A DNA stretch of 64,000 nucleotides from Bacteroidota bacterium (GCA_013285915.1 JABDGS010000008.1:1-64000); one strand, 5' to 3'; positions 38,880 through 47,699 are shown, counted from the stretch's first letter. Notes: generated from the sequence alone by a model not told the origin. Program-made: numbers and translations.

Positions 38880-40910
38880 TTATTTCCTCAACACTGCCTT
38901 CAAATTTTTAGGAACTACCGCAAGTTTTTCGCCGGTAAATAGATCTGTTTGCGGGTTAACCGATAGATAGTCGCTAAATATTGCCGGCAATTGTTGTGCA
39001 ATGGCAAGTATGTTGCCCTCCATTGACCCTGTTCTGTCAGTATCCGGTTGCGAATTCATATAAAAGAGTACATCAAAACCGTTATCAAACATATAGGCAT
39101 ACGTTTCAAGCCCGCATAAACCGCCATTATGCTGCAGTCTGCCAGCTGTTCTGTACCAGTCTTTGGCAAAGCAATCTGTGCATCCTGTACTGGGTGTTGT
39201 AATTGAATCAAGCCAGTTGGGTTTTATAGGTGCAACCCTTTTTTTCACCCGGTCAACAGCAGTTAAAAATTTCATGTGGTCAACAATATCTATTACCCAG
39301 GCGCCCTCGGCTTCTGTCGCATTTATACTCAGGTTATCCGGATCACAGGTCCTGTACGGGTTTGGGTAATAGGTTACTTCATTAACTTTATTATGAATAT
39401 CTATAATTGACATTTTTGCCACATCTATGCCCAGCGGCGCCATAATATCTTTTATATAATCAGGGTATTCGCTGCGTCCGCTTTTCAATTCAATTATTTT
39501 GCCAAGCACTGCATAATTAAAATTTGCATACATGGGCATTTGCCCTGGGTTATATAGCAACACAACCTTAGATATCACACTCGATATATATTTTGTTTTT
39601 GCAGTGCTGTAGTCAAGGTTGTTATAAGTCTCTGGCCCTGGCACACCTAGTGAAACAACGCTGTCGTTAAAACCGCTTGTATGCTCAAGCAGGTTATCAA
39701 TGGTTATATTATTTAGCCTAACATCTTTTTTACTTAACGTGTTTAAAAACGGGTAATCACGAAAAGGATGATCAGAAAGCCTGATGATACCATCATTAAC
39801 TAAATGAATAATGCCATAAGCGGTTATTTGTTTGCTGAGGCTCCCAATTCTAAAGCGGTTATCTACCCTGAGTTTTTCGCCTGTAGCAGTATTAGATACC
39901 CCATAGCTTTTTGCAAAAATAAGCCTGTCGTCATAGGCTACAGCCATAGTAAAACCAGGCATGTGCATGGTAGGGTATTTACCCATAAGACCGTTTATAT
40001 CATTGTCAATTTTATTTATGGCAGCAGTATTTTGTGGAACGGAGGCCCATACACCTGAATACTTGGCTTCGCCACCAGCCTCATACCCGCAAATGTCAAT
40101 TTCATTATAGTTCTGGTAATAGTATTCGTCAGAAACATGTTGAAAATTGTCGCTGGTTTCGTTATACCAAAAAGCATAAGGTGTTGCCGCGCGTTTTTCA
40201 TATATGCCGCAGAATTTTACAGTTCCGTTAACGTTGTATGGATATAATTGAACAGGCATATAGCCCTGCGCAGACAATTGTTTATTTCTTGCTTCAAAAT
40301 CAGTGGTATTTAATGTATGAAAGGAAGCCCATGGCGTACTTAGGTCGTCTTTCAAAAATAACGCGGCAATACATTCCTGCCCGTTTGCCATATAACCGCA
40401 TACTTTTACGGGTTTGTAACCCTGCTGTTTATAGGTATTAAAAATAGCCTGGTAACTGCTAACGGGTATAAGGTATCTAACATACCAGCCTGTGGCGGGT
40501 GTATTTTTAACCCACAGGCCGGTGTAATAATCGGCGCCATTACAATTAAAGGCAGAAATATCTGCAAGCCTGTAACCTTGTGCCGGCAGGGTTTTAAAGT
40601 CATTCTCAAACTGTGCACGGTTTAAGCCATGGTGCGCTATAAAAGCCTTATGCTGGATATTTGCCTCAAACAACACTGAATATTTAATACTGTTGTTTAC
40701 GCAATACCCATTTAAGCGTTTTGGGTAAAAGCCGCTTGCCATAAAAGTATTAAACTGGCTTTGGTATTGCGCAGCATCAAGGCCGTACCGTGTTGCCCAT
40801 GCCTGTGCAAAATTTTTGTTTACAAAAACGGTTAACAGTATAACTGTTAATAAAAGATGGGTTGGTTTATGAAGTTTCATAATTAATGGTTTTGAGTTTA
40901 TTAAATGCAC
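38880..40910 (-). CDS. serine hydrolase (beta-lactamase fold) with N-terminal bacterial tandem repeat (BTRD1-like) region
   Basis: Repeated W.ARYGL.AAQYQ..F......GY.P..L.GY..NG units; catalytic FRIGSLSKQITAYGIIHLV (SxxK) and HTSGF. Confidence 0.88.
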   Translation of the reverse strand: MHLINSKPLIMKLHKPTHLLLTVILLTVFVNKNFAQAWATRYGLDAAQYQSQFNTFMASGFYPKRLNGYCVNNSIKYSVLFEANIQHKAFIAHHGLNRAQFENDFKTLPAQGYRLADISAFNCNGADYYTGLWVKNTPATGWYVRYLIPVSSYQAIFNTYKQQGYKPVKVCGYMANGQECIAALFLKDDLSTPWASFHTLNTTDFEARNKQLSAQGYMPVQLYPYNVNGTVKFCGIYEKRAATPYAFWYNETSDNFQHVSDEYYYQNYNEIDICGYEAGGEAKYSGVWASVPQNTAAINKIDNDINGLMGKYPTMHMPGFTMAVAYDDRLIFAKSYGVSNTATGEKLRVDNRFRIGSLSKQITAYGIIHLVNDGIIRLSDHPFRDYPFLNTLSKKDVRLNNITIDNLLEHTSGFNDSVVSLGVPGPETYNNLDYSTAKTKYISSVISKVVLLYNPGQMPMYANFNYAVLGKIIELKSGRSEYPDYIKDIMAPLGIDVAKMSIIDIHNKVNEVTYYPNPYRTCDPDNLSINATEAEGAWVIDIVDHMKFLTAVDRVKKRVAPIKPNWLDSITTPSTGCTDCFAKDWYRTAGRLQHNGGLCGLETYAYMFDNGFDVLFYMNSQPDTDRTGSMEGNILAIAQQLPAIFSDYLSVNPQTDLFTGEKLAVVPKNLKAVLRK

Positions 40911-41419: not shown

Positions 41420-41472
41420 TTTTATAACAATTACCTGCTTTTGCAGGTGACGCTGCACGATAAGCAGTACTA

Positions 41473-42552
41473 TCACTTTCTTGCATTTTTAGTAATTGCG
41501 CGGTACCTTGCAAATCTTATTGCCTGGTAACTTTTTACAAAAAATCCGGTATCAGGGAACCGATACTTTATATTAATCCGCAGATTTTTAAACAGCGTTG
41601 CATACAATTTCATTTTTGGTAATTTTACCCCTGAAGTAAAAGTGAGTATATCAACTTTAGCATTAACATTGCAGGGGATGGGCGCATAAACACCGTGTTG
41701 CAATAAAATATAACAGCCATAATCAAACAGGTGTTCTTTCTTTTCCAGCACTGCCAGCTTACGGGCCTTATCCCAAAAGTTTTTATTTTCTTTGCTATTA
41801 AGTAAAGCAATATCAACAATCCAGTTTAAATTATCCATTTGCCGGTTTACCACGGCATGTATAATTATCATAAAAACTTCATATTCAATTGACGGCTTCA
41901 GCGCACCGGGCAGAAGACTGTAACTTTCAAGATTTTGCATCAATTTCTCGTTAAACTGTTTGGAGCATAGTGATCCAAATTTCCAATGCAGGTCAAGCCG
42001 CGTTCCAGTAAGGGAATGAGTAAAATCAAATGAATGAGAAAAAGCAGTAATTAAACCGAAGTGTTTAAAAAGCAAAGGCTCTTTTGCCTTATCTGCTTCA
42101 TAACCAATAGTCTTTAAAATTTCGAGTGCTTTTTTTATTTCGGCTGGCCGGATCAGAACATCAAAATCCGCCATGGATCTCAATTCCGGCAGTACGTAAA
42201 ATGACATTATAGAAGCCCCTTTAATAACTATGGGTTGTATTCCGTGCTTTAGCAAAGTTGCGTTCACAACTTTTAACTGGTTAAAAGTATGTTGGGTTTT
42301 AAGCCACCAATACTTATATATAACTTTTAAACGCTTATCATGCAAAGTGGCAATGCCCCATTGTTTGTTTTTATGCATAAAAAAAGGCACCAACCGCAAA
42401 CACCTGTAATCCATTTCATTCATCACTACAGTTGCTTCCCATTCCCTCACAGCTGCGCTATGCCCGCTTGCTGATTTAGCGATGCACGCTTTTATCATAA
42501 GCAACTGCGTTTTGCTTAGGCTATCGGTTGTATTAAAACCATTTAATTTCAT
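41473..42552 (-). CDS. nucleotidyltransferase family protein (NTP_transf_5-like)
   Basis: VIKGASIMSFYVLPELRSMADFDVLIRPAEIKKALEIL; ATG 42552 preferred over TTG 42567. Confidence 0.85.
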   Translation of the reverse strand: MKLNGFNTTDSLSKTQLLMIKACIAKSASGHSAAVREWEATVVMNEMDYRCLRLVPFFMHKNKQWGIATLHDKRLKVIYKYWWLKTQHTFNQLKVVNATLLKHGIQPIVIKGASIMSFYVLPELRSMADFDVLIRPAEIKKALEILKTIGYEADKAKEPLLFKHFGLITAFSHSFDFTHSLTGTRLDLHWKFGSLCSKQFNEKLMQNLESYSLLPGALKPSIEYEVFMIIIHAVVNRQMDNLNWIVDIALLNSKENKNFWDKARKLAVLEKKEHLFDYGCYILLQHGVYAPIPCNVNAKVDILTFTSGVKLPKMKLYATLFKNLRINIKYRFPDTGFFVKSYQAIRFARYRAITKNARK

Positions 42553-44158
42553 CGGCAATATTTTCAAAGCCCTCCTGGTGACTGATAATTATTATGATCG
42601 CGTTATTTTTTGCGTTAACAACTTCTTTTTTTATTTCGCTTATAGCATACTCATCCAAATGGTTAAGTGGTTCGTCTAAAATAATAAGGTCTGATGAACG
42701 AAGCCATTCACGGATAAGCGCAATACGCCTGGCTTCACCGCCAGACAGGCCTTCCCCCTTTTCACCTATCCTTCTCAGCTCAGGCGGCCCACCTGGTAAT
42801 AACGCAGATAGCCAGTTGCCTGTCAATCCGGCCCATGCTTCAGCTGGTGAAGGGTGGCCAAATAAAACGTTATCTTTTATTGTGCCGGTAAACATGGGGG
42901 CATCCTGGTGCAAAAACGCAAACCGGCTCCTAAGTGCTTTCAACTCTTCCCAGACTGTTTCTTTGCCATTAATGCATAGTTTGCCATGTTGTGGCTGCAG
43001 CAGGCCAAGCAGTATATGCGCAGTGGTGGATTTGCCACTTCCATTAGCACCATGCCACAGGTATATTTTGCCTTTCTCCAGCCGCACGCAAATATTATTT
43101 ATGGCCGCGTTGCCACCGTATGAAAATGAAACATTATTTATTGAAATCGTATCAACCTTTGGAATATCATTTAATGGTAACCCCGCAGCATCGTCTTCCG
43201 ATGGCAGCTCAAAAAAAGCAGCTATTGTTTTTGCAGCTTCCTGTCCTTCCATAAAACTCACTATTGCCGCAGGCACATTCGCCATATTGTTTTGTATAAC
43301 GCTCACAATAAGCAAAACAAGCAGCAGGCTGGTAAAGTTTATGTAACCAACCTGTACCCAGTAAATGCCGGTAATAAAAATAACAACCCTTACAAGGTTA
43401 ATACACACCTGGTTTATCGCCCGCCAGCGGGATTGGCTAATTACCATTGCTTTATTAGTGGCCAGGAACACCTGCGTATTTTCATTGTTACGTGCTGCAG
43501 ATCGCTGGTAGCCGCGGCCCATTTTAAGCAGGTCAAACTGGTCAACAGTAGCGGCAACCCAAAAATGTTGCTCACGCCACGCATTATGAAATTTTTTAAG
43601 GTAAGGCCTTACCCGGGTGGTTGAATAAAAATGCAATCCTGCAGTTAATAATAAGCCTGCAGAGCAAACAATAAACATTGGTACGTTTATAAGCAATATG
43701 GTTAATGCCAGTACAAGTACAAGAACAGTATTTACAATTACCATCTCTAGTAAAGCGGCCATACCCTGCCTTAGGCGCCATGCTTCTATCATCATCATAT
43801 CAAAAAAATAAACCCTGTTTTTGTTGTGAAAAACCAGCCATTCAATACTGTTCATTTTTTTCCAAATCCGCTCTCCTAATTTTAGCGAGAACTCCTGCAT
43901 AATTGATGCATTCACTTTTGACTGCATATGCGCGGCTATACCGCCAATGGTAAACATACCTATAACACCAATACTAAGCCATGTTATATATGCTGCGTTA
44001 TTATTATGATTTTTTTGCAGAAAATGATACAGTATATAGGGCCACACAGCAGAAAACAATATTCTTACGCAGCCATAAAGCAGCGATAAAAAAAGTTGCC
44101 GGCGCGGCAAGGACACTAAGAATCCAGTCCAGTTTGTATCTTTTAGTTTTGTTTCCAA
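42533..44158 (-). CDS. ABC transporter ATP-binding protein/permease (no C39 peptidase domain)
   Basis: N-terminal TM domain; Walker A GANGSGKST, signature LSGGEARR, Walker B LIILDEP, IISH. Confidence 0.95.
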   Translation of the reverse strand: METKLKDTNWTGFLVSLPRRQLFLSLLYGCVRILFSAVWPYILYHFLQKNHNNNAAYITWLSIGVIGMFTIGGIAAHMQSKVNASIMQEFSLKLGERIWKKMNSIEWLVFHNKNRVYFFDMMMIEAWRLRQGMAALLEMVIVNTVLVLVLALTILLINVPMFIVCSAGLLLTAGLHFYSTTRVRPYLKKFHNAWREQHFWVAATVDQFDLLKMGRGYQRSAARNNENTQVFLATNKAMVISQSRWRAINQVCINLVRVVIFITGIYWVQVGYINFTSLLLVLLIVSVIQNNMANVPAAIVSFMEGQEAAKTIAAFFELPSEDDAAGLPLNDIPKVDTISINNVSFSYGGNAAINNICVRLEKGKIYLWHGANGSGKSTTAHILLGLLQPQHGKLCINGKETVWEELKALRSRFAFLHQDAPMFTGTIKDNVLFGHPSPAEAWAGLTGNWLSALLPGGPPELRRIGEKGEGLSGGEARRIALIREWLRSSDLIILDEPLNHLDEYAISEIKKEVVNAKNNAIIIIISHQEGFENIADEIKWF

Positions 44159-44159
44159 T

Positions 44160-44852
44160 TTAGCTTAAACTATCCAATCCGCGTTTTTTATCAATATGCG
44201 ATTTTAATATTTTAAGATACGCATTTTTATTTACACCCCGGGTTGTATTAGCATTATGCACGCGCCTGTATGCCAGCACTTCCTCAACCATTACCATGTT
44301 TTTATTATCACGAACAAGCCGGCTAAACCATTCAATAAAATCCCCCATGCTTATTTTTTCATCAAACCCACCATATTTAACAAAGTTTAAGCGGTGTGTA
44401 AGCATTGTTGTTTTAAAATAGCCTTTTATGGGTTTTAAACGTGCTGCGTATCCATGGCTATGGTCACCTGGTGATATTGTATCAAATTCGCTGATGTACG
44501 TAAAACACATATCAGCATCATCGCGTTCCATCTGCAGCATTTGCTTTTTCAGCTTATCGTTATGCCACAAATCATCAGCATCAAGAAGGGCTATGTAGTT
44601 TGCTGTTGATGCTGCTACTCCTGTATTTAACGCGGTAGCTACGCCCGTATGCGGCAGCGGTATAATTTGAATATTTGCATAAGTTACTTCCAGCTGATGT
44701 AACACAGCCAGGGTGCCGTCGGTACTGCCGTCATCAACAACAATTATCTTAATATTTTGCCAGCTTTGCCGCACTGCCGATTCAATGGCTTCCGCAACAA
44801 ATGCCTCGCAATTATATACGGCAATAATAACGTCAATTAATGGTTCATTCAT
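44160..44852 (-). CDS. glycosyltransferase family 2
   Basis: IDVIIAVYNCEAFVAEAIESAVRQSWQNIKIIVVDDGSTDGT; LLDADDLW. Confidence 0.93.
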   Translation of the reverse strand: MNEPLIDVIIAVYNCEAFVAEAIESAVRQSWQNIKIIVVDDGSTDGTLAVLHQLEVTYANIQIIPLPHTGVATALNTGVAASTANYIALLDADDLWHNDKLKKQMLQMERDDADMCFTYISEFDTISPGDHSHGYAARLKPIKGYFKTTMLTHRLNFVKYGGFDEKISMGDFIEWFSRLVRDNKNMVMVEEVLAYRRVHNANTTRGVNKNAYLKILKSHIDKKRGLDSLS

Positions 44853-46267
44853 CGGCCGTTCATTTGTTTATGAAGCAGGTTTAATATCTCGTTTCGCAAT
44901 AGTTTCTTATTAAAGCTTGCATTGGTACCATGTAACCATTTTAGCAATAACAATACATCTGCATTGTCTTCTTTAAACCCGGCATTTCTCAGCCGTCTTA
45001 TAAGGTCCATATCACTGCTTACTGTAAGGTCGGCCTTAAATCCGCCAATACTTAACAGGGCATGCCTTCGTATAAGCAGTGCGCTTGGTATAAATGACCG
45101 ATGTTCCTCCTTTAGTTTTTCATCAAAATAAACCGGAAAATCAACATTGTCATAGCACACCAAACGCTGGTTACACGTAACAAAAGCACAATAAGGATCA
45201 CTGCGTAAAATATTCCATTGGGTTGTTAGCTTATCCTGCAACCACTCATCATCCTGGTCAAGAAAAGCGATCAATTCACCGGACGAAACTTTAATACCCT
45301 TATTACGCGCGGCAGCTACACCCGCGTTTTTTTGCCTGGTTATTTTTGCAACGGGGTAATGTTTTTCAATCCATTCAGCGCCGCCGTCACTTGATCCATC
45401 GTCTATTATACAAAGTTCCCAGTTGGTATATGTTTGTGCCAGCACACCCTGTATTGTTTTTTCAATAAATGCTTTGCCATTGTACAATGGCACGATAATA
45501 CTTATAAGTGGCTCATTTCTCAATACCCTAAAGTCGGCAACCTGTGGTATTTGCTTTGTTTGATTGCCATAGTTACGCCGCTGAAGCGATGCATGCAATA
45601 CTTTTAAAAGCTGAAGTTCCTTAAGGCTTTTATTGACCGACATATTGTTACCGTGTACATGATATAATAAAGTCGTGAACTCAGTAATAACAATATGGAT
45701 ATTATTTTCACGCAATCTCAGCCACCAGTCCAGGTCCTCGCTAAATTTCAGCGACTCATTGAAATAGAAGCCCCGGTCAAAAATCGTTTTACGCACCAGC
45801 AACGAACCGAGGTGCACATGGGTTAACCTGTGATTGGTATCTTCGTAACGTAATATGGGCGATGCCTGGCCCTCATCTATTACATATTGTATCTTTCCGC
45901 CGGCAACTTCCGCCACGTCATCTTCAAAAAAAGGCAATAATTGCATTAATTTATCCTCTGGCCATTCATCATCAGCATCTAAAAACCCTATAATATCACC
46001 CTTCGCCTGTTTTATTCCAAAGTTTCTTGCTGCCGCCGGCCCCATTTGCTTTTCCAGTTGCAATAACTCTATTGCCCGGTAATTGGTTGCAAGCTGTTGC
46101 AGGCCGTTAGTAAATTCCGCTGCAGACCCATCGTTTACAATAATTATCTGCAGGTTATATTCTATATTCTCCGGCTGCTGCTGGTTAATAATGCTTTTAA
46201 CAGCGCGTTCTATTTCCGGGCCGTTGTTAAACGTTGGAATAATTATGCTTACACCGCCCTTATACAT
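44849..46267 (-). CDS. two-domain glycosyltransferase (tandem GT2)
   Basis: Two GT-A domains: GVSIIIPTFNNGPEIERAV...FLDADDEW and LISIIVPLYNGKAFIEKTIQ...FLDQDDEW. Confidence 0.93.
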   Translation of the reverse strand: MYKGGVSIIIPTFNNGPEIERAVKSIINQQQPENIEYNLQIIIVNDGSAAEFTNGLQQLATNYRAIELLQLEKQMGPAAARNFGIKQAKGDIIGFLDADDEWPEDKLMQLLPFFEDDVAEVAGGKIQYVIDEGQASPILRYEDTNHRLTHVHLGSLLVRKTIFDRGFYFNESLKFSEDLDWWLRLRENNIHIVITEFTTLLYHVHGNNMSVNKSLKELQLLKVLHASLQRRNYGNQTKQIPQVADFRVLRNEPLISIIVPLYNGKAFIEKTIQGVLAQTYTNWELCIIDDGSSDGGAEWIEKHYPVAKITRQKNAGVAAARNKGIKVSSGELIAFLDQDDEWLQDKLTTQWNILRSDPYCAFVTCNQRLVCYDNVDFPVYFDEKLKEEHRSFIPSALLIRRHALLSIGGFKADLTVSSDMDLIRRLRNAGFKEDNADVLLLLKWLHGTNASFNKKLLRNEILNLLHKQMNGR

Positions 46268-47282
46268 TGTTTATAAAATTGTGAAATGATGATTGAAAAT
46301 TTTGAACATCATAGCCAAGCATCCATGTATACGCTGGTATGCGGGATGAAAGATAACTGAGTTTTTTGTATGAGATATCCCTGTTATGGGGTAAATGGTG
46401 TAATGTAGTTGGCGCCATGCAAAGTAATGCCTTTGAGGGCGGCGCATTATGAAATGACGAATATTGCCGCTTGCCTATTGCTGGTAATACAATTGCTTTT
46501 AGTGTAATGCAAGGCAACCACTGTTGTGGAAATAATTCTTTAATATCAAAAATTGCTTTTTCATCATTATACGTCTGGCTGTTTTTTATAAAAGGCATCC
46601 AGTCATAAAACTTGCCCCGCAGGTTATCCGCTTCAATTTTTGCGGTTTGGTAAAGTGCGTGTACCACCGGCGTTTCATCAAACTCAATCCAAACATAGTC
46701 ATCCCCTAGATATTTGTAACCCGCTTTTAATAAATTAAGGCATGAAGTTGATTTGCCCGAACCGCTTGGCCCGGTTATTAAAACACCCGTTGTTTCATTA
46801 GCAATTGCTCCTGCGTGCACCAGCTGCGCGGGCAGGTTATAGCTCCAAAAATGAAATATTATCCTGAATGAAAATGTAACTTCCCACCACGGCACATCAC
46901 TTACTGTATCAACCCAATAAATAGCCGTTTGCTTTGATTTTGAGTAGAGAAAAACCTGCTTTTGCCAGGGTTGAAAAAACACCCGTACATCTCCATTTTC
47001 ATTAGAGGCATTATAACCCTGGGCATTAAATTCCGCCCAGGGTGGGGCATTAAGCTTGCCAGCTAAATTTTTACCCTCGGCGTACCAAATAGTGAGGCCG
47101 GGTTGTTTATTGTTCTTATCAACAACCAGGTGCGATAAAGCCGGAAGGAAAAGATTTCGCAAGGCTTCAGACGGTGTATTAAGATGTACTAACCGGCCTG
47201 CCAGTAATAACACATCGGTTTTAAAAGATGGAAGGGAGGTAAATAGCTGCAGGGCATCGTCAAAATATTTGTCAGCTTCCAT
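46260..47282 (-). CDS. HPr kinase/phosphorylase-like (HprK-related) protein
   Basis: VLITGPSGSGKSTSCLNLLKAGYKYLGDDYVWIEFDE (P-loop plus LGDD). Confidence 0.82.
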   Translation of the reverse strand: MEADKYFDDALQLFTSLPSFKTDVLLLAGRLVHLNTPSEALRNLFLPALSHLVVDKNNKQPGLTIWYAEGKNLAGKLNAPPWAEFNAQGYNASNENGDVRVFFQPWQKQVFLYSKSKQTAIYWVDTVSDVPWWEVTFSFRIIFHFWSYNLPAQLVHAGAIANETTGVLITGPSGSGKSTSCLNLLKAGYKYLGDDYVWIEFDETPVVHALYQTAKIEADNLRGKFYDWMPFIKNSQTYNDEKAIFDIKELFPQQWLPCITLKAIVLPAIGKRQYSSFHNAPPSKALLCMAPTTLHHLPHNRDISYKKLSYLSSRIPAYTWMLGYDVQNFQSSFHNFINNV

Positions 47283-47291
47283 GTCCTTTTT

Positions 47292-47699
47292 TTAGGGAGT
47301 TTGCTTAACGGCCCAGCCTTCTTCATCAACGTCGTGTATCGGGTCCAGCATTAAAAGGTCCTGCATATCAGCGTAGCGGTTAAAACGTGATGGAACATAC
47401 ACACCCGCTACTGGCAATTCCCGGTTTGCAGGGGTAACAGGCGCGTCAGATTGTTTTACAATTTCCTCGGCCAATAACTGTTGCCATATGTTGCCCAGTT
47501 CAGTTTCTATGCCAGCAGCATTTGCGGGGTTTGCCTGCATTACCTGTGTTATATAATCAACCGGCGCATCAAACGGCAGTGCCTGCAAAAGCGAAACTGC
47601 AGAGCCCTGTACATTATAATAAAGCCCTGTATCAAGATTGGCAATAACATACTCGTTATCAAATATATCTGCAGCTAGCCTCGGGTTTAAATAATACAT
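47292..47699 (-). CDS. PqqD/RRE-family peptide chaperone-like protein with C-terminal extension
   Basis: DIFDNEYVIANLDTGLYYNVQGSAVSLLQAL PqqD-like N-domain; tail ends RYADMQDLLMLDPIHDVDEEGWAVKQTP. ATG 47699 preferred over 47726. Confidence 0.75.
   Translation of the reverse strand: MYYLNPRLAADIFDNEYVIANLDTGLYYNVQGSAVSLLQALPFDAPVDYITQVMQANPANAAGIETELGNIWQQLLAEEIVKQSDAPVTPANRELPVAGVYVPSRFNRYADMQDLLMLDPIHDVDEEGWAVKQTP

Follow-up and report, generated by a model that had tools for sequence, protein, structure and literature searches.

The window analysed here, a 64,000-nucleotide stretch of a Bacteroidota genome assembly (G000; 63% complete, 226 contigs), carries six minus-strand ORFs between positions 41473 and 47699, which are separated by gaps of 9 and 1 bp or overlap by 8, 4, and about 20-35 bp. 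The first encodes a PqqD-like protein whose start codon is probably the ATG at 47699, giving 135 aa. The genes, together with the segments of this protein, are as follows:

47292..47699, minus strand: PqqD/RRE-like protein with a C-terminal tail, stop at 47292
47451..47699, minus strand: RRE (PqqD-like) domain of this protein, residues 1-83
47400..47450, minus strand: fast-evolving linker, residues 84-100
47349..47399, minus strand: leader-like segment YVPSRFNRYADMQDLLM, residues 101-117, picked out by a lasso-leader PSSM
47313..47348, minus strand: core-like segment LDPIHDVDEEGW, residues 118-129, kept as far as a cyanobacterial plasmid
46260..47282, minus strand: HprK-like P-loop kinase with H156, GPSGSGKST, and D194-D195 present
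44849..46267, minus strand: tandem GT2-GT2 protein (domain search), fused to HprK in relatives
44160..44852, minus strand: single GT2 (domain search)
42533..44158, minus strand: ABC exporter without a C39 peptidase (domain search)
41473..42567, minus strand: NTP_transf_5 nucleotidyltransferase, start TTG 42567 or ATG 42552, motif KGAS...DFD

The ORF coordinates and domain searches bear out the preliminary description of this region as a six-gene operon, and also its description as a RiPP-like tailoring set without a cyclase, peptidase, or separate precursor, none of which was found among the ORFs of the operon. The nucleotidyltransferase matches NTP_transf_5 (PF14907, E=1.9e-24), and the ABC gene matches ABC_tran (E=6e-23) with a weak membrane domain and no C39. 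HprK models match the kinase around the P-loop only. A pairing of PqqD-like and HprK-like proteins is shared with the HPr-rel-A system (TIGR04352/TIGR04353), to which the preliminary description had likened the operon. That assignment is not supported, as TIGR04353 is unmatched and TIGR04352 covers about 50 residues of the kinase at 7e-8, which, like the match to TIGR04355 at 2e-8, is far under the 200-bit cut-off. The base composition of the operon is not unusual. A hairpin at 41433-41448, right after the last gene, is possibly its terminator, with regional hairpin counts not above chance, and the adjoining positions 38880-40910 encode a serine beta-lactamase-like protein with five BTRD1 (polyglycine hydrolase-like) repeats.

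Conservation of the six-gene block in related genomes, proposed earlier as a neighborhood check, was found in three further Bacteroidota genomes with identical gene order: Pedobacter changchengzhani, a Flavobacteriia MAG, and another genome of the window's family (L009, L008, and L010). These copies, located with the kinase as query, have 40-60% protein identity and unrelated flanking genes. A kinase of the window type occurs in 2 of 299 genomes of the window's family, the window's own included; the other three matches of this family-wide search were weak, and their wider loci (L011-L013) include typical lasso loci. We infer from this sporadic occurrence and the unrelated flanks that the cassette has spread horizontally.

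The window's PqqD alone has no match in Pfam or NCBIfam, and it is homologous to PF05402 proteins, PF05402 being found in its relatives. Searched against the PDB, the profile of its family matches solved lasso B1/RRE structures (TbiB1, 5v1u, E=1.6e-13), and the matches to TbiB1 and other B1 structures are confined to residues 1-83. By its homology to the PqqD/B1 fold, the protein is thus an RRE protein. The preliminary description overlooked the conserved C-terminal tail, which consists of two parts, a lasso-leader-like [YF]xxPx[LF]xx[YF].. followed by LDPIH[DE]V..xGW(P). The PqqDs of the four six-gene copies share a near-identical C-terminal FN[RK]YADMQDLL[LM]LDPIHDVDE[ED]GW preceded by a variable linker, and PqqDs of the lasso type have no such tail. 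AlphaFold2 models from three input sequences reached a mean pLDDT of 54 for PqqD and 33 for HprK, too poor to show docking of the tail.

Among the four six-gene copies, pN/pS is 0.79 in the linker (16.5% amino acid identity), 0.34 in the RRE, 0.16 in the leader-like segment, and 0.019 in the core, which is 96% identical even though synonymous sites are saturated. The order of the segments is unchanged in six PqqDs from the class of G485. Because the core is held constant next to a drifting linker and across saturated synonymous sites, the tail functions as an element distinct from the RRE and is under purifying selection at the protein level.

Profile searches recovered 20 tail-bearing PqqDs in 17 genomes, all from Bacteroidota apart from one cyanobacterial plasmid; they are related to one another and the counts given below are therefore not independent. 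Their sources are the class of G485, another class (G547), further genomes of the window's own class, and a plasmid of Crinalium epipsammum, phyla outside Bacteroidota having been sampled via plasmids. This plasmid was the sole match of a plasmid tblastn search (Roseivivax matches at E=5 were taken as chance), and scans of viral contigs for the tail returned nothing. PqqD profile scores are bimodal, with seven full-profile matches at 140-195 bits and the remaining PqqDs of that search ending near column 95-118 at no more than 51 bits, save for one contig-end fragment (65 bits). The tailless proteins are the kind accompanied by a cyclase, B2, or their own HprK. The cyanobacterial version lies on a mobilizable plasmid (pCRI9333.04, 5896-17248, L021) and adds an FkbM methyltransferase, an SMP-30 protein, a TPR protein, two nucleotidyltransferases, and an ABC transporter. 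Three genomes (G888, G960, and G1012) each hold two distinct tail-type systems (L119 and L121, L117 and L123, and L118 and L122, respectively). In the second type (L121-L123) PqqD is shorter, and its tail retains DPIH[DE]V...GWP without the YxxP segment.

The leader-like part of the tail was compared with genuine lasso leaders by position. Counted from the conserved Asp of the 20 tails, position -10 is Tyr or Phe in 14 (17 if Leu is included), -7 is Pro in 11, -5 is aliphatic or aromatic in all, -3 is Lys or Arg in 18, and -2 is [YF] in all. In 13 of the tails [WYFL]xx[PLI] is found at this one offset, against at most one tail for any other offset tested, which fits the published RRE recognition sequence W/Y/LxxP/L/I of lasso and PQQ recognition elements (PMC12710340). 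With a PSSM built from genuine lasso leaders of other loci, the tail was the best of about 130 windows in 15 of the 20 PqqDs; in the window's own PqqD it ranked first of 129, and none of 1000 shuffled tails scored as well. Dropping one leader that came from a cyclase-less locus left the result unchanged. If the Y, P, and L columns are removed, only a weak signal remains and the tail ranks first in 3 of 20, so these residues account for most of the resemblance. In three of the four copies of the window's own subfamily, Ser takes the place of the leader Pro, and the three divergent copies (L121-L123) lack the leader motif.

A lasso cyclase or B2 was found within 9 kb of none of the 20 tail PqqDs, some of these loci being cut by contig ends. 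The window genome has one PF00733 match, on another contig with neither PqqD nor B2 beside it, and B2 (PF13471) is absent from this 63% complete assembly. B2 is likewise absent genome-wide from seven tail-cassette genomes that are 93-100% complete (G305, G667, G547, G888, G960, G973, and G1012). In G485, G517, G425, and G704, B2 is present away from the tail cassette, and those of G485 and G704 were read as a lasso locus with a tailless PqqD. It is very improbable that the cassette is a decayed lasso cluster which lost its cyclase, B2, and precursor. HprK, nucleotidyltransferase, PqqD, and ABC genes are also present in lasso loci (L011-L013), as decay would predict, but the six frames are intact, conserved in four genomes, and under strong purifying selection, and a kinase tree separates tail-type from lasso-type HprKs with 100/99 support, the exceptions being three tailless, cyclase-less loci (L054, L056, and L069) whose kinases cluster with the tail-type ones via a long branch. 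The preliminary description had named decay as an outcome that would count against its reading; the intact cassettes and the absence of B2 from whole near-complete genomes speak against it. Direct BLAST of the window nucleotidyltransferase against that of a lasso locus gives E=0.02 only.

A precursor encoded elsewhere was not found either. In the examined cassettes no small ORF carries a leader motif, and no further small ORF is conserved alongside them. A separate precursor with a [WY]xxPxL leader and a Thr near the cleavage site is likewise missing; the leader pattern is found in the tail, which has neither Thr nor Gly1. At the DNA level, DPIH[DE]VD is encoded exactly one time per genome in 11 of 13 cassette-bearing genomes, always in PqqD, and this pattern revealed no free-standing tail peptide in any of the 13. 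When the tail profile was run against 395 class-level and 396 phylum-level genomes, no free-standing tail peptide emerged either, and the convincing tail-only matches all lay in PqqD frames (we regard two marginal matches with E near 0.002, one in a 408-aa and one in a 1025-aa frame, as noise). By comparison, all four lasso loci that were read (L011, L013, L093, and L095) have a separate precursor, and two of them, L093 and L095, combine free precursors with short PqqDs in genomes that also hold a tail system. The tail and a separate precursor therefore appear to be mutually exclusive.

The P. changchengzhani lasso-type locus L093 (1468-3052 and 3204-7326) is separate from the cassette and encodes two HprK homologues in tandem, a PqqD without the tail, and six near-identical precursors whose leaders read WVKPELL... 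Tailless PqqDs with a divergent HprK and no cyclase nearby are found in L124, L125, and L126 (3603-3713 and 3816-6481 in L126, which also has a nucleotidyltransferase). These loci were considered as a split version of the system and rejected, as they encode no DPIH peptide and only one lasso-like candidate precursor, in L126, ending in FVPPTLERLDDLVQATSQKFPPPPAS.

An HprK lies within 9 kb of 19 of the 20 tail PqqDs, the remaining contig ending too soon, and the His, the P-loop GK[ST], and the catalytic Asp pair are present in all 19 of these kinases. At the same distance GT2 is found in 19 of 20 loci and a nucleotidyltransferase in 18, so that HprK is a constant and GT2 and nucleotidyltransferase near-constant companions of the tail. 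HprK is fused to one GT2 in L022, L023, L025, L087, and L088, and an HprK~GT2~GT2 fusion in L120 corresponds to the window kinase and tandem-GT2 gene in a single chain. ABC matches are inconstant, being absent or only distantly related in many relatives, and some are of other kinds.

Several features of the core bear on what these enzymes act upon. The last residue of the tail varies and is Ser only once in 20, and the tails share no invariant Ser, Thr, or Tyr in the core, so phosphorylation of a C-terminal Ser as in paeninodin is unsupported. The cassette also contains no peptidase. The lack of a conserved Ser/Thr and of a protease leaves a serious rival, namely that the tail is a docking peptide recruiting the HprK-like kinase and glycosyltransferases to the RRE scaffold, with the true substrate being another peptide or a glycan made elsewhere. 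Extreme conservation of the tail would suit such a protein-protein interface, as would the presence of an HprK-like gene near every tail PqqD whose locus is long enough to tell. Docking is the main rival, but we consider it less likely than not: the leader-like part is spaced as in lasso leaders bound to an RRE, an unexpected feature in a site for docking a kinase, and the cassettes have no other conserved small ORF.

A glycan product is also possible given that in L120 (2068-8495) the cassette directly adjoins an exopolysaccharide cluster (Bac_transf, DUF1972/GT4, and Wzy_C). The PqqD tail could then be a primer or scaffold for a GT2-built, ABC-exported polysaccharide, its RiPP likeness being ancestral only, and the many GT2/GT4 genes and the FkbM methyltransferase of relatives would fit such a role. 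This appears unlikely because the cassette lacks a flippase, polymerase, and initiating transferase. Adjacency to a polysaccharide cluster, which the preliminary description would have counted against a peptide system had it been constant among homologous loci, applies to this one relative but not to the four six-gene copies, whose flanks as read contain no polysaccharide genes.

The best-supported reading is one that the preliminary description had mentioned in passing, that the substrate is encoded inside PqqD itself, as the tail has both a leader-like recognition segment and an invariant core-like segment. We propose, with a chance of being right that we put close to even, that this is a compact, horizontally spread RiPP-like cassette in which recognition protein and precursor form a fusion in cis, the core of the tail being modified and the product exported. 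The N-terminal RRE would fold like a lasso B1, and the tail, comprising a lasso-type leader (Y..[PS].F..Y) and the fixed core, would fold back onto its own RRE or bind that of a second PqqD copy, thereby presenting the core to the HprK-like kinase, the GT2 enzymes, and the nucleotidyltransferase. These may attach phosphate and sugars to the core, and the product would be released by a host protease and leave, itself or as a glycan built upon it, via the ABC exporter in those cassettes that have one. That the tail itself is the modified substrate is our inference. In pseudomycoidin, HprK and a nucleotidyltransferase install phosphate and hexose (PMC9266682).

With paeninodin and pseudomycoidin clusters the cassette shares a PqqD-like RRE, an HprK-homologous kinase, a nucleotidyltransferase, an ABC exporter, and a YxxPxL leader-like segment; it differs in lacking the ATP-dependent cyclase, B2, separate precursor, and C-terminal Ser, in adding GT2s, and in a core that is not of the Gly1...Asp/Glu type. 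Borosins are similar in placing the core at the C-terminal end of a pathway protein, which in their case is an alpha-N-methyltransferase, whereas here the partner is the recognition domain, and the kinase, nucleotidyltransferase, and glycosyltransferases would act in trans. PQQ and mycofactocin likewise pair a near-invariant peptide, such as a fixed product implies, with a chaperone of the PqqD type, and mycofactocin uses a GT2 (MftF), but the cassette has no radical SAM enzyme and its peptide is fused instead of free. What is new here is that the RRE and the peptide it holds appear to form one chain, and no published description of the cassette or of an RRE-precursor fusion was found in open-access papers. 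It is conceivable, although we would not yet expect it, that the family represents a new RiPP-like class extending from Bacteroidota to Cyanobacteria, in which leader and core stay permanently attached to the domain that recognizes them and a fixed, cofactor- or signal-like core is phosphorylated and glycosylated by HprK~GT2 and nucleotidyltransferase.

In a 2025 survey, 21% of PF05402 proteins were larger than a discrete RRE and had no other annotation (PMC12710340). The tail-PqqD family falls among these oversized, unannotated proteins and offers an explanation of the added length that can be tested. Programs that predict precursors look for small stand-alone ORFs and would overlook one that is joined to its RRE. 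The near-invariance of the core in two phyla suggests either a single conserved product or a single essential interface.
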